From the IMG/VR virus record IMGVR_UViG_3300042447_001515, positions 1 through 24,466 of that record: a stretch of DNA of 24,466 nt; one strand, 5' to 3'. This document shows, one piece after another, positions 4,881 through 22,629 of this stretch. A program made the position numbers and the translations under genes. The notes beneath the pieces are model-generated. The model was not told the origin of the DNA, searched no databases, and saw nothing but the letters and a program-made list of their open reading frames with translations. Source of the stretch: a virus. The number at the start of each line of letters is the position of its first letter. Within the stretch, counting starts at the first letter, position 1.

Positions 4881-4954
4881 TGGTGCGAAATGAGAGAATC
4901 GAACTCTCGACCGAAGTTTGGAAAACTCCTGTTTTGCCACTAAACTAATTTCGC
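4881..4954 (-). tRNA. tRNA-Gly(UCC)
   Basis: The minus strand folds into a complete cloverleaf: a perfect 7-bp acceptor stem (GCGAAAT with ATTTCGC, 4948-4954 and 4885-4891), D-stem GTTT/AAAC, anticodon stem GGAGT/ACTTC with loop TTTCCAA giving anticodon UCC (reads GGA and GGG), a short variable loop, and T-arm GAGAG-TTCGATT-CTCTC. A discriminator A73 and an encoded CCA (4881-4883) follow. An encoded CCA end and placement between small genes are typical of phage tRNAs, which supplement codons common in AT-rich phage genes. The A73 discriminator differs from the U73 usual for proteobacterial and Bacillus tRNA-Gly. The 4955-5023 gap upstream holds a small inverted repeat (TGGTT/AACCA, 4959-4975) but no TTGAC promoter. 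Confidence 0.95.
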
Positions 4955-9936: not shown

Positions 9937-10419
9937 TTAATCTTCTTGATTTAAGGCTTTTGAAGAAACGCTAAAAGATGCTTCTAGGCTGAGTTTCAAC
10001 CATTCCCTAAGTTTAATTGATTCATCGTTCGTGAATCCTACAGAAAAAATATTTTCTTTATCTTTTGTATCAGAAACTTTTAGTCCAAATCCGGACATGG
10101 CTCCTTCTTTAATATATGGCGCAAAAGAAATCGATACACCGGATCCATTATTGAACTTATGATAAGTAGACCATTTTTCTTCTTTTTCAATTGCTCGAAC
10201 GATGCCAGAAATCTCAACGTCATTAAATTTTATATTCTTTTTCGCGGATGGATTGTCCTTATTCCCCTTGAATGATCCGATTTTCTTTTCAGCGTTCCAA
10301 GAATGTTGCTTTATGAAGGATACATAGATGCCGCCGTCTGACTCATTGAATGCGATAGAAACTGCAACCCCTTTATTACTCGCGTTTGGTTTATAAAATT
10401 GAATATTATTTAGATTCAT
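9937..10419 (-). CDS. Possible ssDNA-binding protein (160 aa)
   Basis: A 160-aa, strand-rich protein: NIQFYKPNASNKGVAVSIAFN, GGIYVSFIKQHSWNA, NIKFNDVEISGIVRAIE (strand then helix), and a second similar half with GSGVSISFAPYIKEG, FGLKVSDTKD, FSVGFTNDESIKLREWLKLSL (strand then helix). Two beta-sheet-plus-helix halves with a KFN-EI-I pattern recall the Whirly/PC4-type ssDNA- or RNA-binding fold, and the gene sits directly after the DNA polymerase gene. That is a fold-level guess. The ATG at 10417-10419 is chosen over an in-frame TTG two codons upstream; a TATAAT (10428-10433) ends eight bases before this ATG, matching the near-leaderless pattern seen elsewhere. Confidence 0.7.
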   Translation of the reverse strand: MNLNNIQFYKPNASNKGVAVSIAFNESDGGIYVSFIKQHSWNAEKKIGSFKGNKDNPSAKKNIKFNDVEISGIVRAIEKEEKWSTYHKFNNGSGVSISFAPYIKEGAMSGFGLKVSDTKDKENIFSVGFTNDESIKLREWLKLSLEASFSVSSKALNQED

Positions 10420-10427
10420 ATGCAAAT

Positions 10428-10456
10428 ATTATATGATTATTCTACGTCTTCGTCTA
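10428..10456 (-). promoter_or_regulatory. Possible promoter TAGACG-N17-TATAAT
   Basis: Minus-strand TATAAT (10428-10433) is a perfect -10, 17 bases after TAGACG (10451-10456, four of six to consensus) inside the end of the polymerase gene. It ends eight bases before the ATG at 10419. Weaker than the TTGAC set because the -35 lies in coding sequence. Confidence 0.35.
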
Positions 10457-13037
10457 TTAATTCTTGATCTTTTAGGTCTCTGAGCGCCATGTATATTTTG
10501 GCTGTCTGAACACCTAGTTTATCTACATAGCAGGCATTGCCGTCTTTCTTTGTTCCTTTTATTACAACTACATCTCCTTCTGCTGGAAGCTTGTCTCCAT
10601 TATCTTTTTTGCACTCAGCAAGCTTGTCCCACTTCTCGGAAGAGAAAATGAAACAATCTACTGATCCGGTTTCATCAGAAACTGTATATTTGACATAGGG
10701 ATTGCCGTTTTTCGAAGTTCTTTTTAAGACCTCATCTATAACTCCAACAAAAAATAAACTGCTTTTCTCATTTAATGAGTTGCAATATTTGATATCTTTA
10801 ATATTCTCGTTCTTTTTCCTAAAGATGGACGACAAGCTTTCGCTGTATGACATTCCAAGAAGGGCTTTCTCGTAAAAGAAATTTGCCAACTCTTCATTTC
10901 TACTATTCAATAAGTAAATAGTTTTAAACTTGTCATAGTCTCTTTTAATTGTGCCAAATCTAGAATTTTTGATAATAGGATTGCCCTTATCGTCTTTGAC
11001 TGTTTCATTCAAAGCTTTTACGCAATTAAGAACGTCATCAAATTTTCCAGATTCAATCAATTGTTTTGTCAATATCTTCTCTCTGTCTTTCAATATGTTC
11101 CACGTCTGAGCTTCTAAAACTAGTCTACTTCTAGATTTATTATTAATGCTTTGTAGCGCGCCAGCTTGAATAAGAGCGGAAAGTACGCCGATTGAAATTT
11201 TTGCTTGCTTAGCAGCAATAAATAGATCAATTTTTGAATTGTATTCGCCTCTAAAGTTGATCATTTTTTCAATTACCTTTTTGCTGATCCCTTTGATCGC
11301 AGATAATCCATATCTAATATTCGCACCCTCGATTTCAAAGTCTTCACCACTTTTTGCAAGATCTGGAGGTAAAAGCTTAATTCCAAAATCTTTCATTTCT
11401 ATACTGATAATATTAATCTCATTTAAACTGTCCTGCTCATTCTTCGCCATTCTTAGAAGAGATAGGAAAAATTCCTTAGTATGATTAAATTTGAAATATG
11501 TAGTCAAAGCAGCCATTGCGCTATAAGCTGCGCTATGAGAAAAATTAAATTGGTAACCAGCACTGTCTTCGCATACTTTCCAAATAGTGTCAGCTGTTTC
11601 CTTTTTAATATTTGAAGATTCACACTTCTCATAAATTTTAGGCTTCCATTTGGCAATTTCTTCTGGAAGTTTTTTTCCGATAGCTCTCCTAATTTCTTCA
11701 GAATCAGACAGGGAGAATCCGATCTTATTAAACATGGCCATCACTTGTTCTTGATAAAGACAAATATTTCCAGTTTTTTCTAGGACTGATTCGATAATAG
11801 GATCAATCTCTGGTTTCACTCCAGTATTTGCATATGTCGCATATTGATCCACATAATCTAATGCTCCAGGTCTTGCAAGTGCTACAACAGCACTAAGTTG
11901 CTCTAGATTTTTAGGTTTAACTTTTTGGCAAACCTTATAGTTAGTATCTGCTTCAATTTGAAAAAGACCCTTGGGGTTTTTTAAGTCTTGAAGATGCCCG
12001 TATATAAGTTCGTAATCCTCTAGGTCAATTTTTTTATAATTTATTCCTACCAGCTTAGAAGCTTCATGAATAACTGAAACGCTTTTCAAGCCAAGAAGGT
12101 CGAGTTTAATATTGATTTTGGTTGCCCAGTCCATTGTGAATGAACTTACAGATTCTTTATCTGCCGTTAATTCAGTTGGGGTAGCCTTGTTTAACAAATC
12201 ATGACTTACTACAATACCAGAAGCATGTACACCCTTGTTTCTAATTAAATTCTTAAGTTTTAAAGCAGTTTGATACACTTGCTTGTTTTCATCGCACCAA
12301 TTTTTAAATTCCTCATTGGTTTCATAGATTTCTTCTGGCTCGGCAACTTTTCCAAATTTAGAAGTAAACAGAGCAGTGATTTTATTCATCTCCGTTTCAT
12401 CTTTCTCGCCGATGATTTTCCCGCAGTCCTTAATAAGAGCTTTGCCAGAAAGAGTGGAAACGGTTAGCATTTTGCTTGTTCTTTGAGGGTATTTTTCCTC
12501 AAGATATTTTATTACTTCCTTTCTTCTATAATAGCAAATATCACTATCAATATCGGCGATCATCTTTCCATCCAAATATGTAACTCCATCTACAACTTGC
12601 TTTTTTGCTCTAGCCTCTGACACGAACCTTTGAAAAAATAATCCGTATTTTACTGGATCTACGCCAGTTACTCCTAGTAAATAAAGAACAAGGCTTCCAG
12701 CCGCTGATCCTCGACCAAGACCGGTTGGAATATCATTTTTATTGCAAAAATTAAAAACATCCCAAACGATCAAAATATAATCTACAAAATCAAGTTTATA
12801 GAGAGTTTCTACTTCCTCAGTGACTCTTTCTTTATACTTTGAGATATCAAATCCTTGGGCTTTCCATTCTGGCATTTTTTCTTTAAAACCTTTATTACAA
12901 AGAGATTTTAAAATTTCTAAGCTATTTGCATTTTCTGGAATAGAGTATTCGATACGATCTTTTTTGTCTACTTCAATTTTTGGACAACGAACTCCATAGA
13001 ATGGGAGATTAAGTTTTGAAAATTTTTCTAAAAACAT
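10437..13037 (-). CDS. dnaE: DNA polymerase III alpha, catalytic part (split gene)
   Basis: An 866-aa C-family DNA polymerase lacking the PHP domain. It begins at the equivalent of the region just after PHP in DnaE and contains GLGRGSAAGSLV (107-118, palm), IADIDSDI with catalytic Asp162 and Asp164 (family DxD), KLDLLGLKS with the third Asp313, ALARPGALDY, the fingers signature LYQEQVMAMFNKIGFS, and SHSAAYSAMAALTTYFKFN. Near the C-terminus is an OB fold (SSLFFVGVIDEVLKRTSKNGNPYVKYTVSDETG segment). The protein ends soon after the OB fold, so the tau-binding domain of E. coli DnaE is absent. The PHP domain is encoded separately at 13730-14491, with an exonuclease gene between. Its own TTGACT promoter overlaps the end of that exonuclease gene. 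It would replicate phage DNA with the helicase and primase upstream. Confidence 0.93.
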   Translation of the reverse strand: MFLEKFSKLNLPFYGVRCPKIEVDKKDRIEYSIPENANSLEILKSLCNKGFKEKMPEWKAQGFDISKYKERVTEEVETLYKLDFVDYILIVWDVFNFCNKNDIPTGLGRGSAAGSLVLYLLGVTGVDPVKYGLFFQRFVSEARAKKQVVDGVTYLDGKMIADIDSDICYYRRKEVIKYLEEKYPQRTSKMLTVSTLSGKALIKDCGKIIGEKDETEMNKITALFTSKFGKVAEPEEIYETNEEFKNWCDENKQVYQTALKLKNLIRNKGVHASGIVVSHDLLNKATPTELTADKESVSSFTMDWATKINIKLDLLGLKSVSVIHEASKLVGINYKKIDLEDYELIYGHLQDLKNPKGLFQIEADTNYKVCQKVKPKNLEQLSAVVALARPGALDYVDQYATYANTGVKPEIDPIIESVLEKTGNICLYQEQVMAMFNKIGFSLSDSEEIRRAIGKKLPEEIAKWKPKIYEKCESSNIKKETADTIWKVCEDSAGYQFNFSHSAAYSAMAALTTYFKFNHTKEFFLSLLRMAKNEQDSLNEINIISIEMKDFGIKLLPPDLAKSGEDFEIEGANIRYGLSAIKGISKKVIEKMINFRGEYNSKIDLFIAAKQAKISIGVLSALIQAGALQSINNKSRSRLVLEAQTWNILKDREKILTKQLIESGKFDDVLNCVKALNETVKDDKGNPIIKNSRFGTIKRDYDKFKTIYLLNSRNEELANFFYEKALLGMSYSESLSSIFRKKNENIKDIKYCNSLNEKSSLFFVGVIDEVLKRTSKNGNPYVKYTVSDETGSVDCFIFSSEKWDKLAECKKDNGDKLPAEGDVVVIKGTKKDGNACYVDKLGVQTAKIYMALRDLKDQELIDEDVE

Positions 13038-13049
13038 ATTGTATATTTA

Positions 13050-13078
13050 GATATAAATCTTTTTGATCCGTTAGTCAA
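13050..13078 (-). promoter_or_regulatory. Promoter TTGACT-N17-TATATC before polymerase gene
   Basis: Minus-strand TTGACT (13073-13078), 17-base spacer, TATATC (13050-13055). The stop codon TGA of the exonuclease gene is embedded in the TTGACT. The -10 ends 12 bases before the ATG at 13037. Confidence 0.5.
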
Positions 13079-13728
13079 ATTTCAATTTGGTATTTTAGTT
13101 TATTCCAAACCTGCACGTTAATATTTAAATCATAAAGCGCGTCGTGTAATTTACTTTCATCAAATTCTATAGAATAGTTTTGAGCGACCCTGCTAAGCGA
13201 ATTTTTAGATCCTTTAACTATATGGTTCAGCATTTTGTACTGGTAAAACATGAAGTTTTCAGATTTTTGATATGGGATTCCGTTGTTGACGCCTTTGGCG
13301 ATTGCTAGGGTATCGAATACCTGCTTTTTGGATAGAATGTCTGGACACTTTCTGCCCATCCTTTCATAAATAGCTTTAATGAGATAAATATCAAAACCAA
13401 GAATATTATGACCAGCTATTGCGTCGCAATCTTTAAGATGCTCGGAAAGAATATTAAAGGCGTCAATTGACTTTACCCCTTCTTTATTCATTCTATCTTC
13501 AGAATAAGAGTGAGCCATTTGCCTAGCTCCTTTCGAGAATTTAAAATCTTCGCCCCAGTTTATCAAAATGTCCAAGCCTGAATTTTTGCAAATTTCTCCA
13601 CCAACGGTTTTAATGAGAGCCATTTGCCAAGGAAGATTAAACCTATAATTCAAGCATAGGTTTGCAGTTTCAAAATCAATAAAAAGAATTTTTATTTTTT
13701 TATTAAATCTAATTAGGTCTTCTTGCAT
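13075..13728 (-). CDS. DnaQ-like 3'-5' exonuclease (DEDDh)
   Basis: A 217-aa exonuclease with the complete DEDDh active site: FIDFET (Asp18, Glu20), GHNILGFDIY (Asp113), and LHDALYDLN (His195, Asp200). The family removes mismatched 3' ends during replication using two metal ions; length and motif spacing match the epsilon subunit core. It lies one base after the PHP gene and 37 bases before the polymerase gene, so the order is PHP, proofreading exonuclease, polymerase. That order recalls PolC, where exonuclease and PHP are joined to the polymerase in one chain. It most likely acts as the proofreader of the split polymerase. No clear Shine-Dalgarno before the ATG. Confidence 0.9.
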   Translation of the reverse strand: MQEDLIRFNKKIKILFIDFETANLCLNYRFNLPWQMALIKTVGGEICKNSGLDILINWGEDFKFSKGARQMAHSYSEDRMNKEGVKSIDAFNILSEHLKDCDAIAGHNILGFDIYLIKAIYERMGRKCPDILSKKQVFDTLAIAKGVNNGIPYQKSENFMFYQYKMLNHIVKGSKNSLSRVAQNYSIEFDESKLHDALYDLNINVQVWNKLKYQIEI

Positions 13729-13729
13729 T

Positions 13730-14491
13730 TTATTTATTTTCTAGAAAAGATTCGAGGCAAAATGAATCACTGCACAAGTGATCAAGATTAGGTTTTTGAA
13801 GTTCGCTTTTTTTACCAAGACATCTCATAGTAAGATAAGCTAAAAAATCTTCTCTATTTTCATAATAGATAGATTGAGTTTTTATAAGCTCTGAGGATGG
13901 AAAGTTTTCTTTTACAAATGAGAAAAGTTTTTCTTTATAAATTGAATCAAAAGGCAAGTCATTTTGTTCCCAAAAGAAAGTAGGGTTTGTCCAAAATTCA
14001 GCCGGTGTGCAAGAGTTCATTTTGAAATGATTATTAAAAAGGTAAGAGTCGTAAAATGGAACCCCAAGAGACAACGAGTCGCTCCAGTATTTTTTAAGAT
14101 TTTCAAAGTCAATTCTAGGAATGTAATAAAAACCATCTTTAGCAGCGGTAGAAAAAATGGAGCTTAAATTTTCGTAACCGCTTGCGTCATTAAGAAATAT
14201 GATATACTTTGCTTCCGTTTTGATAGAGGCTTCGTTTTTTTCCGCAATATTATTACAGACTGTAATTCTCAATCCAAAGTTTATATTGACTTCAAGATCT
14301 TTGGAGTTGAAGTAAAGTTCTAGCAAGCCAGACATATTATCATCAACCAAAAAGGCATTGTTAATATTGTTATCTTTTACCAGTTTTAGAATTGATCTTG
14401 GTCCAACTTCTCCTTCGTGATCCTTTTCAAGTGTCAGGATCGAGCGATTCATAGAATAGTGGGATTTGAAAAATGGCAGAGTGTTCTCCAT
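13730..14491 (-). CDS. Stand-alone PHP domain of DNA polymerase III alpha (degenerate)
   Basis: A 253-aa protein corresponding to the N-terminal PHP domain of DnaE: PFFKSHYSMNRSIL (first motif), ILKLVKDNNINNAFLVDDNMSGLLEL (second), VNINFGLRITV (third), and the C-terminal LQKPNLDHLCSDSFCLESF, which matches the DnaE segment just before the palm. The usual PHP metal ligands are eroded: the first motif has K-S-H where HxH is expected and the second has VDDN instead of TDH, so the domain is probably structural, not catalytic. I chose the ATG at 14491: a GTG at 14506 would lie upstream of the -10 box TATTAT. It should bind the separate polymerase subunit. Downstream exonuclease and polymerase genes follow directly. 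Confidence 0.8.
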   Translation of the reverse strand: MENTLPFFKSHYSMNRSILTLEKDHEGEVGPRSILKLVKDNNINNAFLVDDNMSGLLELYFNSKDLEVNINFGLRITVCNNIAEKNEASIKTEAKYIIFLNDASGYENLSSIFSTAAKDGFYYIPRIDFENLKKYWSDSLSLGVPFYDSYLFNNHFKMNSCTPAEFWTNPTFFWEQNDLPFDSIYKEKLFSFVKENFPSSELIKTQSIYYENREDFLAYLTMRCLGKKSELQKPNLDHLCSDSFCLESFLENK

Positions 14492-14497
14492 TTTTTG

Positions 14498-14525
14498 ATA
14501 ATACACCTTCTTTAAGTCGTGTCAA
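14498..14525 (-). promoter_or_regulatory. Promoter TTGACA-N16-TATTAT before PHP gene
   Basis: Minus-strand TTGACA (14520-14525), 16-base spacer, TATTAT (14498-14503, five of six to consensus). The -10 ends six bases before the ATG at 14491, deciding the start of the PHP gene. The sequence TTGACACGAC is shared with the nrdB promoter, and an ACAC/GTGT inverted repeat spans the spacer. Confidence 0.6.
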
Positions 14526-14528
14526 ATG

Positions 14529-15533
14529 TTATTTGAAAGCTGGGCAACCGGAATAGTTGACAACTTCGATCTCCCATTCTTGATCTTTTTTATTTTTTTC
14601 AATTTTTAGTAGAGCTTCTTCGTGCTCGATATGAGACGAGATGCCTTTGGGAGTTCTTTTTGACCGATCTGTTTCTACGATTCTATAAAAAGTCATTGGG
14701 TTCTTGTATGGACAAGTCCACTTTCCCATTTGACATAGCCAGCTTTTCTTCCTGTCAAAATAAGCCATATTGCTTGTCGCAGACTTTTCGTCTATTTTTT
14801 CTATAACGGAGGTGATGTACTCCAAATAATGCTCTAGCCCGTCTATTTCATTATCGGAAAAATTATTATTCTGATAAGGATTGTCGGGAAACCTCATGAA
14901 GAAGAAGCTAGCTTTATAGTTTTTGTAATTTTTCCATATCTTTCTAGCAACTAGCGAATACATCATCGCTTGAATATTGGCATCTTCTTCATCTCCTTTG
15001 AATTTCTTGGAAGAGCTTTTGTAGTCAAGAATTTTAATATCGTCTCCCTCAACTTCAACCCTATCTATAAAACCTCTTATGGCGTACTTTGGGGATTCGC
15101 TAATAATGTCAAACTCGTATTCGGAATCAATAATTTTAGAAAAATCTTTATCTATAAATTCAAATTTCATGGTCGTCATTACCATGTCGCAAACTGTATC
15201 CCAATTATTTTTAGTTGGAAGTTTTGCTTTGATTGGCTTAACGGGTTCTTCTTTTGAAATCTTCTCTTTGCGAAATTGACCTTCTAAAAACCTTTTTATA
15301 GCGGTAATTTTATCTGGAGATCCAGACTCCCAAATTTTTTTTATATAGTGCTGGTGTCTTGTCTTTGAAATTAATTCGAAGAGATTGTGTACAACTGTAC
15401 CCCTGCTTGCCCCACTGTTTCCTTTTTGCGGAACTCCAAGTTCGTAAGACGCATAATACTGCCAGGAGCAGGAATCTAGGGTTTTTATTTTAGATGCCGA
15501 TAGATAAATAGGTTTTTTTAATTGTTGTTCCAT
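14529..15533 (-). CDS. RecB/Cas4-like PD-(D/E)XK nuclease with possible Fe-S site
   Basis: A 334-aa nuclease. LSASKIKTLDSCSWQYYASYELGVP at the N-terminus is the typical RecB/AddB-like start, followed by GTVVHNLFEL (45-54, His49), IRGFIDRVE (152-160, Asp157) and IKILDYKSSSK (166-176, Asp170 and Lys172), then IQAMMYS (187-193, the Q motif). Cys22, Cys267, Cys274 and Cys330 are placed as in AddB/Cas4 proteins that hold an Fe-S cluster (one N-terminal Cys plus a C-terminal group), although the spacing of the last ones is looser than usual. It probably processes DNA ends or intermediates during replication and recombination. Its ATG overlaps the primase gene by 16 bases, linking it to the replisome block. 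No adaptation genes (cas1, cas2) are near, so a CRISPR role is unlikely. Confidence 0.88.
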   Translation of the reverse strand: MEQQLKKPIYLSASKIKTLDSCSWQYYASYELGVPQKGNSGASRGTVVHNLFELISKTRHQHYIKKIWESGSPDKITAIKRFLEGQFRKEKISKEEPVKPIKAKLPTKNNWDTVCDMVMTTMKFEFIDKDFSKIIDSEYEFDIISESPKYAIRGFIDRVEVEGDDIKILDYKSSSKKFKGDEEDANIQAMMYSLVARKIWKNYKNYKASFFFMRFPDNPYQNNNFSDNEIDGLEHYLEYITSVIEKIDEKSATSNMAYFDRKKSWLCQMGKWTCPYKNPMTFYRIVETDRSKRTPKGISSHIEHEEALLKIEKNKKDQEWEIEVVNYSGCPAFK

Positions 15534-16450
15534 TCTTGAATTTCTTTTTCTGACATTTCCCCAAAATCGTTTTTTGGTGGCAGCTTTATTAATACTTGAT
15601 TTTTATCAAAATAATCAAGGAATTTCTTTTTAGCAGTCTGGGCGGCAAGGTTTCCAGCTTTGCTTTTTTTGTCATTAACTGCATCATTATTAAATGCTAT
15701 AATAATTTTTTCAGGATCAAGGGATACTAAAGTATAGCACAATTCGTCCAATCCGGTTAAGCCAAACGTAATTACAAAATTTCTAATTCCAGATTGCCAA
15801 AGTTTCAATCCATCTCCAATACTCTCCACAATAATGCAAGTCTTAGATTCAAGTATATATTGTTTGGTTAAAAATAGTGGATATTTCCATTCGCTTTTCC
15901 TGCCGATATGTTTCCATTTTGGAAGATACTCATCTTTAATGCTTCTTCCAGAAAATCCAAGAATATTTTTATTCTCGTCGTATATTGGAAAAACATATCT
16001 GCCTACCATTTTTCCACTGTAACATAGCCCACCATCAAATGGGTCTAGGGTCTCTTTTTTTATTTTTCTACTAGCCCAATAAGAATAATCAGTTTTAAGT
16101 TTTGAAAGTAGAGATTTGTCATAAAATTTAATATAATCAAGCTCCATATTTTCAGTTTCTATATTTTGTTCCTGAATCTGACTAGATAAATTTAAATTCA
16201 ATTTTTTAAGCCAAGTTTTGGCGAAGCCCTTTGGCTTATTCAAGCTAATCTCTATGAGGTCTTCAAAAGAACCGGAATAATTGCGGGCAAAATCTATCCA
16301 TCTTCCATCGTCTTTCCTAATGCACAGAACGCTGTCATTGCCAGAATCCCTATAGAGAGGCTTGGTTCTCCAGTCTCTCCCGTTGTCGGAAAGTTTATAT
16401 CCAAGATTTTCTAAGACGGCTTTGATTGAATCAGAATTACAAGAGTTCAT
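15518..16450 (-). CDS. DnaG-like primase with Toprim domain
   Basis: A 310-aa primase. The N-terminal 85 residues (SIKAVLENLGYKL, DWRTKPLYRDSGNDSVLCIRKDDGRWIDFARNYSG) have the strand order of a primase zinc-binding domain but lack the CHC2 cysteines, so zinc is probably not bound. Residues 122-200 resemble the primase N-terminal catalytic region (YWASRKI, LDPFDGGLCYSGKMVGRYVFPIYDENKNILGFSGR). The Toprim domain follows: IIVESIGDGLKLWQSGIRNFVITFG (Glu209, Asp213), then IIIAFNNDAVND (Asp256, Asp260) and a late KLPPKNDF. It makes RNA primers for the phage replisome. Its start overlaps the helicase gene by 14 bases and its end overlaps the nuclease gene by 16, indicating a single transcript. It is shorter than bacterial DnaG (about 580 aa) and lacks a helicase-binding C-domain. 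Confidence 0.88.
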   Translation of the reverse strand: MNSCNSDSIKAVLENLGYKLSDNGRDWRTKPLYRDSGNDSVLCIRKDDGRWIDFARNYSGSFEDLIEISLNKPKGFAKTWLKKLNLNLSSQIQEQNIETENMELDYIKFYDKSLLSKLKTDYSYWASRKIKKETLDPFDGGLCYSGKMVGRYVFPIYDENKNILGFSGRSIKDEYLPKWKHIGRKSEWKYPLFLTKQYILESKTCIIVESIGDGLKLWQSGIRNFVITFGLTGLDELCYTLVSLDPEKIIIAFNNDAVNDKKSKAGNLAAQTAKKKFLDYFDKNQVLIKLPPKNDFGEMSEKEIQEWNNN

Positions 16451-17942
16451 CTTTATTATTTTTGCTATCTACAGGACGCCCATCTCTATCAAAAATTTGA
16501 TATTGAAGACCATTTTTCTTAACAAGAGTATCGAGACTTCCTTTTTCCTCAACGTTGAAATTTTTAACATCAAAAGAAATATAGTTATTTACATATTTTC
16601 GCTCTCCGTCTACAATCCTTTCAACCAAATCGACGTGACCGCTGGCTTCTTTTCCTTGAAAACGGCTTGCCGTAGTAACCAGTTTATGAGTTCCGCATTC
16701 TTCACCGTCTTCCTCAATCTCGTCAATTGTTTTACGCCTAAAGATACCAACATATGAGGCAAACCATTGAAGACGATCAGATAGAGCAATCGCTGACGAG
16801 TCGTCCGTGAACCCTCCAGCTTTTCTATTTTGACTTTCTCCGCTTCTATTCATTTGAGTGGAAGTCAACACTACGCAATTCAACTCTTCTCCAAGCTTTT
16901 TAAGTTTATCTGTTTTATCCCCAATTACTTGATACTCTTTCCAGGACTCTGAAACGCCCTCCCCTGTCATTTTTAGATAATCGTAAGTAATGATTGCATT
17001 TTCGCCACGACCAACCTTTGAGTAATACCACCTCCGAGCAATTGACATAATTTCACTGGTGCTTTTATTTCCAACCTTAAGATGATGAAATTTAAAATTT
17101 TTAATTTTTGCCCAAGTGGCTCTGACCTTTTGCACCATTTCTGGATTTTTTCTCCAGCTTCCAGTATCTATATACCAAAAAGGAACGCCTGAAATTGAAG
17201 CAATTAACCTTTTCTGCACATCAAGGGTTTCCATTTCTGTATCCAAGTAAAGACAAGACACTTTGCCGTTATACACTTCGTTGCAAATTTTATAATTCAA
17301 ATCGCAAAGCATGGTCGTTTTTCCGGATTTGGGTCGAGCAACGAATGCGTACAAATTCTTTGGTCGAAGTCCTCCATATAGACGATTAAAGTCTTTGAAC
17401 GGAGTAAGAAAACCTGAGTCGTCCACTGGGTTATTTCCAATTTCCTCAATTTGCTCCATTGCGTCTTCAAAAATATTCACAGGCTCTTCAAACAGGTCAT
17501 AAACGCTAATTTTCTCATTATAAATTGCATCTGCGGCAGCGATAATCTGATCTGCCGACATTTCTTCTTTGGCGATCATTTTTTGCTTTAACTTTTCAGC
17601 AGTCTCATGAATTTCTCTCTTAATGGTAAGAGTCTTTAATTTTTGAGCAGCTTCGATAAAGGCTTTTTCAGATAAATTGATTAGGCTTAAGCTCTGAAGA
17701 TAATCAAATACGTTGGTAGAATTTTTAAATGTTATTCCAAGATTGTTTATCTTTTGACTGATAAGAACATTGTCGACGCTTTCATTTTGAGCAATTGTAT
17801 TTTTAATAACACTGAAAATTACAGAGTGAATGTTATGATAAAAGTCTTTTTCATTTACAAAAGAATCAATTTCATAAAATGATTTTGGATATTTTAAGCA
17901 TCCCGCAATTACGTGTTTTTCTACCGGCAATGAATAAATCAT
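16437..17942 (-). CDS. dnaB: DnaB-type replicative helicase
   Basis: A 501-aa RecA-fold helicase with both DnaB domains. The N-terminal helical domain covers residues 1-105 (PVEKHVIAGCLKYP, FYHNIHSVIFSVI, VDNVLISQKINNLG). The C-terminal motor has Walker A ARPKSGKTTM (202-211), CLYLDTEM (motif 1a-like with Glu), IITYDYLKM (Walker B), and VVLTSTQMNRSG (the Gln motif H3), followed by a late R-rich SRFQGKE arginine finger region. It forms a hexameric ring that unwinds the fork 5' to 3'. It heads a run of tightly overlapping genes (helicase, primase, nuclease). A TTGACT-N16-TAATAA promoter ends seven bases before its ATG. Residues 460-501 are a divergent tail rich in Asp, Asn and Lys. Confidence 0.93.
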   Translation of the reverse strand: MIYSLPVEKHVIAGCLKYPKSFYEIDSFVNEKDFYHNIHSVIFSVIKNTIAQNESVDNVLISQKINNLGITFKNSTNVFDYLQSLSLINLSEKAFIEAAQKLKTLTIKREIHETAEKLKQKMIAKEEMSADQIIAAADAIYNEKISVYDLFEEPVNIFEDAMEQIEEIGNNPVDDSGFLTPFKDFNRLYGGLRPKNLYAFVARPKSGKTTMLCDLNYKICNEVYNGKVSCLYLDTEMETLDVQKRLIASISGVPFWYIDTGSWRKNPEMVQKVRATWAKIKNFKFHHLKVGNKSTSEIMSIARRWYYSKVGRGENAIITYDYLKMTGEGVSESWKEYQVIGDKTDKLKKLGEELNCVVLTSTQMNRSGESQNRKAGGFTDDSSAIALSDRLQWFASYVGIFRRKTIDEIEEDGEECGTHKLVTTASRFQGKEASGHVDLVERIVDGERKYVNNYISFDVKNFNVEEKGSLDTLVKKNGLQYQIFDRDGRPVDSKNNKDELL

Positions 17943-18682: not shown

Positions 18683-19762
18683 TTAATTTAAACAAAGCTC
18701 TTTAAATTTATTAAAAAGGTACTTGGTGGCGTCTTCATTATTTGACAAGGCGAGTCTAAAGTTTTCAAGACCCTGAATAGTCTCGGGAAAAGAAATATTT
18801 TTAGATTTCAATTCGTCAATAATTGATTGGTCTATTTTGATCCAAGCTCCAGCCTTTTTAGCAAATTCCCACATGATCATAAGGTCTGCGATCTCATATT
18901 CAACCCAAACAGAATTTCCTCCATTCTGGTTGTGCTTGATAGGATATCTAATTTGCTTTCCGTCTTTTTCATTAGGTGACTTTTTAAAAGTAATTTTAGC
19001 CCAATGACCTATATTTTCTTCCTTGCCGTTTACAGTGGCGGTAATATAATCGTCTTTGTATCTTGGAGCAAACTCAAAAATCCAATCAGAGTAATGCAGT
19101 AGAGCGGAACCGCCAGATGCATTTGTTAGGCGCGGATCTGTTTTGGCGTATTGATTGATCTTGACTTCGCTTCTGACTTGACTAATCATTGCGCAAATAT
19201 GTCCGCCAACAGAAAACGGAAGAGCCATTTTTTTCAAGAAGTGCGAAGAGATTGCGGCTCCTCCAGAAACTTTGACGGCATCTTCAAACGTTTTGTCCTT
19301 ATCTCCTTTCGGGATAAGTGCGTCCATGCTATCAATAATGAAAAAATAACTAATCTCTTCCTCGTTATTTTGGACTAGCTTATTGATTAAATTTGCAACT
19401 GTTTCATAAATATTGCATTTAAATACAAAACAAGTTCCATCTTCCCACTCTTTTGAGTTTTCTACAAACTTGATTCCGGATCTGTCGACTACGCTTTTTG
19501 ACAACCTGCCCTCAGCTTTGATATAAAGACCTTTCCTATTTTTGCCTTGAAGGAAATTTTTCATGATGGACAAGCTGCTGCTTGTTTTCCCGCCACCTGA
19601 AACTCCGCTGAATCTTAGAATCGAAGGATGAAGTCCGCCGCCCACCTCAATATCAAATATGAGACTTCCAGTAGAAACTAGATAATCCTTGTCGCCAATG
19701 AAATTGTAGTGTTCTTCCTTGTTTGATTTTAAATAGTCCGAGAGTAAGTCTTTTGAGTTCAT
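18683..19762 (-). CDS. RecA/UvsX-like recombinase
   Basis: A 359-aa recombinase with the RecA core: GSLIFDIEVGGGLHPSILRFSGVSGGGKTSSS, Walker A Gly53-Thr60; YIKAEGRLS (80-88) with catalytic Glu84; FFIIDSMDALIPKG (140-153, Walker B Asp144); and ICAMISQVRSEV (189-200) with the sensor Gln195. Segments 201-220 (KINQYAKTDPRLTNASGGSA) correspond to the L2 DNA-binding loop. It forms filaments on ssDNA and drives strand exchange in phage replication and repair, as UvsX does in T4. The length matches RecA (about 350 aa). Its ATG overlaps the upstream 120-aa gene by four bases, so it is probably made from the promoter at 20149-20177. Confidence 0.92.
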   Translation of the reverse strand: MNSKDLLSDYLKSNKEEHYNFIGDKDYLVSTGSLIFDIEVGGGLHPSILRFSGVSGGGKTSSSLSIMKNFLQGKNRKGLYIKAEGRLSKSVVDRSGIKFVENSKEWEDGTCFVFKCNIYETVANLINKLVQNNEEEISYFFIIDSMDALIPKGDKDKTFEDAVKVSGGAAISSHFLKKMALPFSVGGHICAMISQVRSEVKINQYAKTDPRLTNASGGSALLHYSDWIFEFAPRYKDDYITATVNGKEENIGHWAKITFKKSPNEKDGKQIRYPIKHNQNGGNSVWVEYEIADLMIMWEFAKKAGAWIKIDQSIIDELKSKNISFPETIQGLENFRLALSNNEDATKYLFNKFKELCLN

Positions 19763-21045: not shown

Positions 21046-21717
21046 ATGAAAAATGTAGAAAATAAAGAAAAGCTCCTATCGGAGCTTCTGAGCCAAAACG
21101 GAAGTTTTGACTCAGGGTTAATAATAGGGGTTTCAGGTTTTGCAAGATGCGGGAAAAATACACTTGCTGAAATATTATCTCAATACTCTAGTCACCTTGG
21201 CTTGAGCACTAAAATGTTTTCGTTTGCCTACGCACTAAGGCAGGATTTAAATTCATTTTGCAAAGAAAAATTTGGAATCTCCTCTTTCACAGAGGACAAT
21301 CTTGACAAAGGTAAGATAAGGAGTATACTGATTGCGTACGGTCAATCACAAAGGGCGCTAAGCGAAGGAAGCTATTGGTGGAAAAAGCTAATGCCAGAAA
21401 TAAATTCATTTTTTTCTTCTGGTGGAAATGTAGCAATTATTTCTGATCTTAGATTTAAAGAATACGGATTTGACGAAGTAGACTTTATCAGATCTTATGC
21501 CAATTCCCTTATAATCACCTTGACCAGAGTGTGCGAAGATGGAACCTTTATCTCTCCAGCTCACGAATCAGAAAGTGAAAATTTTCCCAAAATAGCATCA
21601 AACGCAGATCTTAATTTAACTTGGAAAACAGTATCAAAAGAAGAGAACTCAATAATTTTTGAGTCAATTCCAGCAATAAATACACTAGACAGAAAACTAA
21701 AGGAGACATTCAAATGA
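21046..21717 (+). CDS. Deoxynucleoside monophosphate kinase
   Basis: A 223-aa P-loop kinase. LIIGVSGFARCGKNTLAEILS contains Walker A G31-FARC-GKN-T39; the SG-AR-GK-T form is typical of phage dNMP kinases such as T4 gp1. Later motifs are ILIAYGQSQRALSEGSYWWKKL (residues about 91-112, LID/substrate region), NVAIISDLRFKEYGFDEVD (Asp-Arg after a strand, substrate-binding) and LIITLTRV. It phosphorylates deoxynucleoside monophosphates to diphosphates for the phage DNA precursor pool. It overlaps the sigma factor gene by four bases and is the first gene of the rightward block, preceded by a near-leaderless promoter. nrdB further right belongs to the same pathway. Confidence 0.85.
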   Translation: MKNVENKEKLLSELLSQNGSFDSGLIIGVSGFARCGKNTLAEILSQYSSHLGLSTKMFSFAYALRQDLNSFCKEKFGISSFTEDNLDKGKIRSILIAYGQSQRALSEGSYWWKKLMPEINSFFSSGGNVAIISDLRFKEYGFDEVDFIRSYANSLIITLTRVCEDGTFISPAHESESENFPKIASNADLNLTWKTVSKEENSIIFESIPAINTLDRKLKETFK

Positions 21718-22307
21718 AAACACACGAACAAGATTTAATAGAAGCCGCTAAAAATGGAGATAGTGACTCAGCAAAAACCTTAATAGAAATGCACAGCGGA
21801 ATATGCATGGAGGTATTCAAAAAATATACATACAATTCTGCGTGTCCATCATTTGTAAAAGATGATATCCTATCAAGCAAAGACTTCATTATTTTTAACT
21901 CCATTAGGTCATTTGATCCATCTCACGGAAGTAAATTCTCAACATGGCTCGCCAATCAGGCGCGTTATTATTGCCTGAATAGTATAAATAAAAATAAAAA
22001 AAATATACCATCCCAAGCTGATCTTTTTATAGAAAATAAATCTGGCGAAGATGGCGAAATGTCAACAGATTTAAAAAATAGAGAAAAGGAAGAGTTCAAG
22101 ATTGAAAACATAGATAAAATTAAAAATATTCTAAACTCTCTGTCGAATGAAAAAATTAAAAAAGTAATTGAGAAAAAGTACCTATCTAATAAAGATGCCA
22201 CCTACACTGACATTGCAGAAGAAATGGGCGTTACAATTCAAACAGTAATAAATTGGCATAATAAATTTATAAAATTTGCAAAAAATAACATAAAATACAT
22301 TGACTAA
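21714..22307 (+). CDS. Phage sigma factor (sigma-70 family)
   Basis: A 197-aa sigma-like protein. Region 2 is visible at about residues 25-95, with FNSIRSFDPSHGSKFSTWLANQARYYCLN, the region 2.3-2.4 signature (FDP-G--F-TW----R) used for -10 recognition and melting. Region 4 is at about 137-190 with a helix-turn-helix YTDIAEEMGVTIQTVINWHNKF for -35 or activator contact. Region 1 and most of region 3 are absent, replaced by a charged linker (103-133). This matches late or middle phage sigma factors that redirect host RNA polymerase. The start has a clear GGAG eight bases upstream and is coupled to the kinase gene (four-base overlap). Which of the promoters it reads cannot be told from sequence alone. 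Confidence 0.83.
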   Translation: MKTHEQDLIEAAKNGDSDSAKTLIEMHSGICMEVFKKYTYNSACPSFVKDDILSSKDFIIFNSIRSFDPSHGSKFSTWLANQARYYCLNSINKNKKNIPSQADLFIENKSGEDGEMSTDLKNREKEEFKIENIDKIKNILNSLSNEKIKKVIEKKYLSNKDATYTDIAEEMGVTIQTVINWHNKFIKFAKNNIKYID

Positions 22308-22338: not shown

Positions 22339-22629
22339 ATGGAAAATAAAAATAAAGAAATTGGCGCACTTTGGGAAAAAACATCCAAAGCTGGAAACAA
22401 ATTCAAGACTGGATACGTTCAACTTGAAAATGGAGAAAGACTCGAAGTTGTGGTATTTACAAATCAATACAAGAAGCCTGGCGATAATACTCCAGATCTA
22501 AGGATCTATCTATCAGAGCAAAAAGGAGCAGTTCAAGACAAGGTTTCGACAAAGTCGGTGACAAAAGAATCAAGCCAAGCCCAGGTTGCAGCAACCTCGC
22601 AAGAAGATTCTGACGAGATTCCTTTCTAA
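22339..22629 (+). CDS. Small DUF736-like protein with SSB-like C-terminal tip
   Basis: A 96-aa protein. Residues 5-60 (IGALWEKTSKAGNKFKTGYVQLENGERLEVVVFTNQY, then PDLRIYLSEQ) match the small beta-rich pattern 'IGALW--TSK-G--F--G-----G----V-VF-N-----PD--IY' that I associate with DUF736-like proteins. A Ser/Gln/Thr-rich linker (63-90) leads to an acidic tip D92-E-I-P-F96, like the SSB C-terminal tail that recruits replication and repair proteins. No OB-fold ssDNA-binding residues can be identified, so it need not be an SSB. A TATAAG seven bases before the ATG, with TTGACT 20 bases further upstream, may be its promoter. It ends one base before the glycosyltransferase ATG. Confidence 0.75.
   Translation: MENKNKEIGALWEKTSKAGNKFKTGYVQLENGERLEVVVFTNQYKKPGDNTPDLRIYLSEQKGAVQDKVSTKSVTKESSQAQVAATSQEDSDEIPF

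Follow-up and report, generated by a model that had tools for sequence, protein, structure and literature searches.

Separate genes for the PHP domain, exonuclease and polymerase core of a probable DnaE-type replicase in uncultured tailed phages

The three genes

The viral DNA analysed here is the 24,466-base IMG/VR record IMGVR_UViG_3300042447_001515 (34% GC), hereafter the window, in which the alpha subunit of a DNA polymerase III is encoded in pieces. Three consecutive open reading frames (ORFs), all located on the minus strand and each in a different frame, correspond in the direction of reading to a PHP domain, a DEDDh exonuclease and a polymerase core:

13730..14491, minus strand: PHP-domain protein of 253 amino acids (PF02811, 8e-9)
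13075..13728, minus strand: DEDDh 3'-5' exonuclease of 217 amino acids (PF00929, 5e-10)
10437..13037, minus strand: PHP-less polymerase core of the DnaE type, 866 amino acids, with palm, fingers, HhH and OB fold (PF07733, PF17657, PF14579)

The PHP and exonuclease genes are separated by 1 nucleotide and the exonuclease and polymerase genes by 37 nucleotides. An earlier note on this DNA had described the PHP and polymerase chains as separate genes in different frames, divided at the boundary between PHP and palm. Its coordinates, strand and frames are correct, and the PHP chain aligns uninterrupted with the PHP of DnaE as far as the palm, which places the break where the note had put it.

A DnaE-type core and a DEDDh exonuclease

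Profile and fold comparisons predict that the largest product is a C-family catalytic core of the DnaE type with two-plus-one catalytic aspartates. In Pfam it matches PF07733 (3e-58), PF17657 (1e-28) and PF14579 (4e-19), and the DnaE superfamily model TIGR00594 scores above its cut-off (2.9e-134), with no PolC model among the profile matches of the window polymerase. In the PDB the core matches DnaE at 6e-95 versus 1e-5 for PolC. As in DnaE, the OB fold is C-terminal to the core; it is recognized at residues 770-829 by PF01336 with an E-value of 4e-5 that is under the curated cut-off, and a second matched stretch of Taq DnaE falls at the same place. The departure from DnaE concerns the PHP domain, which is not part of this chain but a separate gene in all readable relatives. 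The D162/D164/D166 motif and D313 are invariant in the alignment of close relatives, and a regular-expression scan matched the catalytic signatures in 94-95 of 100 related core stretches, the rest being unmatched and not inspected, in agreement with the earlier statement that all catalytic aspartates are retained.

The earlier note had also compared the gene order to PolC, from which the three genes might have been derived. The parts list is indeed the same (PHP, DEDDh exonuclease and C-family polymerase) but the likeness is superficial. PolC is a single chain, with the exonuclease inserted in the PHP domain and an OB fold at the N-terminus, whereas in the window the PHP is uninterrupted, the exonuclease has its own gene and the OB fold is C-terminal. 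PolC ancestry is not supported, given the DnaE-type profile and fold scores of both the core and the PHP.

For the exonuclease, the five DEDDh residues (D18, E20, D113, H195 and D200) are invariant in 43 sequences and, together with a DnaQ fold, assign the protein to the DEDDh (DnaQ/epsilon-like) group; a complete exonuclease of this type does lie between PHP and polymerase, as first described. Its structure was predicted with a predicted local distance difference test score (pLDDT) of 93.5. PHROG 192, "DNA polymerase exonuclease subunit", matches at 2e-20, and the best epsilon model is PRK06310 (1.5e-9), far under its cut-off. In nine of the 11 long contigs that were analysed (103-205 kb), an exonuclease of the RNase_T family is found over the cut-off, usually in one copy. 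In the L057 contig (G002:C1:91047-102427), as many as three RNase_T-like stretches are located upstream of the polymerase in addition to the usual exonuclease, and one of these is near a RecA-like gene.

A PHP protein with a lost active site

When considered separately, the PHP chain also scores best against DnaE (TIGR00594, 1.9e-11). Its AlphaFold2 model forms one domain (pLDDT 87). In the PDB, this fold is matched best by the PHP of E. coli alpha, with alpha-epsilon chimeras among the structures, and PolC ranks lower. The columns of the PHP active-site motif are replaced in 40 of 40 members, with D or E surviving only at the third position, whereas most fused relatives keep an intact motif. 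At the former metal-ligand columns, R, K and F have become fixed or almost fixed, and a total of 25 columns are invariant over 39 PHP sequences. Loss of the motif in every member combined with this fixation indicates that the fold has been kept while the chemistry is gone, which argues for a retained structural role. The PHP chain is likely a DnaE-type PHP domain that has lost its active site and acts as a scaffold subunit. In one relative (L047:1340-2659), the PHP protein has a C-terminal extension of ca. 185 residues.

Conservation of the split among relatives

IMG/VR was scanned with the polymerase, exonuclease and PHP proteins, yielding ca. 110 overlapping loci that were reduced to 45 polymerase lineages below 92% identity. 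A complete non-redundant PHP was recovered from 39 of these, and a complete exonuclease from 42. The three families occur as separate ORFs, in the order PHP, exonuclease, polymerase, in all 96 stretches that hold them (one of these, L001, being the window itself in reverse orientation), and none of these stretches has an ORF carrying two of the three families. The three-gene split is common to ca. 40 non-redundant IMG/VR lineages, none of them fused. Spacing between PHP and exonuclease ranges from a slight overlap to 2 kb, and between exonuclease and polymerase it reaches 4.4 kb; negative gaps are partly due to the ORF caller picking upstream start codons. In the L041 contig, the PHP gene is located ca. 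9 kb upstream of the polymerase.

The number of lineages, their varying spacing and the lack of any fused ORF exclude chance, an assembly error, the product of a frameshift or a recent accident. The split is real and has been kept in every relative that could be read. An assembly error, which the earlier note had considered, and a frameshift are both ruled out by independent contigs with variable spacing, and the search for related phages that it proposed returned some 40 equally split lineages and no intact gene.

Pairwise identity falls to 35% for the PHP, 30% for the exonuclease and 42% for the polymerase, with means of ca. 0.50 for the first two versus 0.58 for the third. Distances computed from the three proteins correlate (r 0.82-0.90), which fits the expectation for co-inheritance.

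No nucleotide match to the window was found in cultured phages, and protein identity to cultured-phage proteins is ca. 25-33% among the matches listed. Many of the top protein matches are human-gut "Bacteriophage sp." records and Listeria and Enterococcus "phage" records. The five gut records and the Enterococcus record that were examined (L012, L017-L020 and L132) have a fused DnaE, with bacterial-type neighbours in the gut ones where these are visible, and likely represent bacterial contamination of phage collections. Because of their fused bacterial-type dnaE, they were taken as bacterial references only. One member of the split group (L133, CAJQLD010000081.1) occurs in a contig binned to a metagenome-assembled genome of Flavobacteriaceae, a hint of a Bacteroidota host that is too weak for assignment.

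A candidate three-polypeptide replicase

Each of the 11 long contigs has exactly one DnaE, the split one, and Pfam analysis detected neither PolA nor PolB in them; a second intact polymerase elsewhere was thus not found in these contigs. The split genes are embedded with genes for DnaB and a primase (see below). A search with PF00712 detected no member of the beta-clamp family, while those with PF02916 (T4-type clamp) and PF07068 (gp23) were silent even in control genomes and hence prove nothing.

In E. coli, epsilon proofreads while held by the inactive PHP domain of the alpha subunit. The window resembles this Pol III core (alpha DnaE plus epsilon DnaQ) in having a DnaE-type polymerase, an inactive PHP and a separate DEDDh proofreader, but differs in that the PHP is a protein of its own, the exonuclease gene lies between PHP and polymerase, and parts binding the clamp or tau were not identified in the split replicase.

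We consider it likely that the three genes encode a three-polypeptide DnaE replicase used by a large, uncultured group of tailed phages, with a PHP scaffold and a DEDDh proofreader, and that this arrangement arose by fission. The 866-residue core would synthesise DNA, and the 253-residue non-catalytic PHP protein would bind back onto it and scaffold the exonuclease, which in turn would dock on the PHP or on the core and proofread in trans. The resulting complex may act as a proofreading replicase together with the linked DnaB, primase and single-stranded DNA-binding (SSB)-like protein, the split state itself having presumably come from fission of a fused, host-like DnaE.

Several points weigh against this reading. 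That the three products form a physical complex, that the PHP serves as its scaffold, that proofreading takes place in trans and which way the change went are all inferred. In some relatives, the PHP and exonuclease genes are located kilobases away from the polymerase, so that coupled synthesis is not essential. The long contigs may be incomplete, which makes the missing second polymerase only suggestive. The top fold match of the exonuclease is RNase T, with DnaQ and epsilon close behind. Finally, the polymerase tree (see below) is unrooted and has its midpoint on the stem leading to the split group; the tree alone cannot separate fission from a state in which the genes were never joined.

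The polymerase core might also work alone or with the exonuclease, the PHP protein having drifted to another job outside the replicase. Such a drift would suit a PHP that has no active site and can be as far as ca. 9 kb from the polymerase, and would fit the higher divergence of PHP and exonuclease mentioned above. We nevertheless regard it as unlikely, since no complete region lacks the PHP, which keeps its place before exonuclease and polymerase, since its 25 invariant columns and a C-terminal end still alignable with DnaE to the palm boundary have been maintained, and since known alpha subunits have the PHP as an integral part of their structure.

The DEDDh protein is likely the proofreading subunit. 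DnaQ epsilon has a clamp motif and uses its C-terminal segment to bind alpha. The window exonuclease has no obvious C-terminal tail of this tethering kind and no close relative in cultured phages which, along with RNase T being its best solved fold match, would be compatible with an independent nuclease (for instance RNase T-like, or directed at host DNA or RNA) rather than with a proofreader of this polymerase. This seems quite improbable given that the gene is kept between PHP and polymerase in all lineages, that its product is usually the sole RNase_T-family protein found in the long contigs and that its PHROG match is a polymerase exonuclease subunit. In Pbunavirus, a DEDDh-type gene is likewise found directly upstream of dnaE, although there DnaE is one chain of 1035 amino acids.

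Nearly all known C-family replicases have a PHP domain joined to them. Here an inactive PHP occurs as a protein of its own, next to an intact core and proofreader, and can be omitted or added back in vitro to measure what a PHP without its nuclease site contributes to the stability of the polymerase, to recruitment of the exonuclease and to fidelity. With this group, the C-family phage replicases also include a widespread lineage of uncultured phages.

Origin of the split

A careful tree was built from 28 polymerase cores, as the earlier note had suggested. Its root was not inferred, and it contains no PolC outgroup: the enzymes of Staphylococcus and Clostridioides phages considered for this purpose have a PHP-like N-terminus and were not taken as PolC. 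The split group forms one branch with 100/100 support. A second set of split enzymes, those of Krampusvirus (the cultured Microbacterium phages Poultress, gp55/gp56, and Hager, gp57/gp58; L121 and L130), falls among fused actinophage DnaEs with bootstrap values of 99-100, a position also recovered in a wider quick tree. In Krampusvirus, DnaE is cut at the same PHP-palm boundary into two adjacent genes, but there is no exonuclease between them and the N-terminal protein is 345-353 amino acids long. Since these enzymes are nested among fused ones, their split is an independent event; the PHP-palm junction has therefore been cut at least twice, and such a cut is tolerated.

Whether the chain had been taken apart or was never joined was left undecided in the earlier note. 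The former is favoured here and the latter disfavoured, although the root of the tree is not fixed. Three observations speak for fission: the PHP is degenerate whereas the motif is intact in most fused relatives, core and PHP are both specifically DnaE-like, and Krampusvirus demonstrates that fission occurs. The split is probably a later dismantling and not an ancient unjoined state. That the three genes preserve a stage preceding the assembly of DnaE and PolC from PHP, exonuclease and polymerase appears very improbable: separate genes do characterize a deep, monophyletic group with the midpoint root on its stem, but a midpoint root cannot be relied on when the stem is long, the core and PHP are nearer to DnaE instead of equidistant between DnaE and PolC, and both the degenerate PHP and the Krampusvirus case point the other way.

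Other divided enzymes differ in where they are cut. Cellulophaga phage phiST (L144:41629-45229) also has a DnaE in two ORFs, of 525 and 673 amino acids, but the cut is in the middle of the palm, with the GRGS motif on one side and the catalytic aspartate motif on the other, and the N-terminal region stays with the first part of the palm. No coding sequence is annotated at this locus in the phiST RefSeq record. In jumbo phages of group 2.2, the Pol III alpha module likewise occurs as separate proteins, with a minimal alpha cut inside the catalytic core and genes that are far apart, while other Pol III domains are absent and a B-family polymerase is present (PMC7824862); the window core, in contrast, is intact and no PolB was found in the 11 long contigs. 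The jumbo-phage report was the only paper on split phage DnaE that we found, with none for the Krampusvirus or phiST splits. The literature searched contained no three-gene PHP-exonuclease-polymerase replicase whose PHP is a pseudoenzyme, although an earlier mention is possible.

A second fracture in some relatives

In three relatives (L010, L011 and L021; see L011:7486-8890), a further break divides the core within the conserved FNKSH motif, between FNK and SH, apparently as a fractured gene with a split intein. The upstream half ends in what looks like the N-part of an intein (CLSPETIVQ..., with a weak Pfam intein match of 4e-4) and the downstream half starts with an apparent intein C-part (...VTSN, followed by SHA), a free-standing nuclease-like ORF being located between the two halves. 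Judging from these motifs, the replicase would be made from four genes in these relatives, with the core joined by protein trans-splicing. At this site, the DnaE of Rhodococcus phage NiceHouse (gp90, L128) contains an intein-like insert in one piece, ca. 145 residues long.

Cyanobacterial DnaE is also produced from two genes, and rejoined by trans-splicing of a split intein, but no intein parts occur at the break between PHP and polymerase in the window. The probability that an assembly error, a frameshift or an intein scar divides a normally fused gene is negligible: the intein of the three relatives is inside the polymerase core, with nothing comparable at the PHP-polymerase boundary, neither the PHP nor the polymerase of the window has a Hint or intein Pfam match, and ca. 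40 independent lineages display variable spacing, some with kilobases of other sequence in between.

Neighbouring genes and other features

The three genes belong to a replication cluster that further includes the following features:

18683-19762, minus strand: UvsX/RecA-like protein
16437..17942, minus strand: DnaB-type replicative helicase (PF03796, 1e-23; PHROG 19, 1e-56)
15518..16450, minus strand: DnaG-type primase (PF08275, Toprim; PHROG 47, 1e-20)
14529..15533, minus strand: PD-(D/E)XK nuclease (PF12705, 7e-25), kept upstream of PHP in relatives
14498..14525, minus strand: candidate sigma-70-like promoter, TTGACA-16-TATTAT, just before the PHP start codon (11/12, best of 72 matches)
9937..10425, minus strand: 162-amino-acid protein directly downstream of the polymerase, which it adjoins in most relatives

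Two more genes of the cluster are found beyond the 162-residue protein, the first of which is glycosyltransferase-like. More distant relatives of this protein have acidic C-terminal tips with W or F, a tail that has been lost in the window's own subgroup, and one relative weakly matches the Whirly family (E-value 0.02). Because its relatives carry the acidic tail ending in W or F, the 162-residue protein is likely to bind single-stranded DNA, as far as can be predicted from such motifs.

The promoter scan gave 72 matches versus 60.5 (standard deviation 8.2) in shuffled sequences, and thus no enrichment of operon promoters. Elsewhere in the window, a 96-residue ORF (22339-22629) ends in DSDEIPF, an SSB-like acidic tip, another ORF (21714-22307) has weak sigma-70-like matches, and a tRNA-Gly(tcc) gene is located at 4881-4954.

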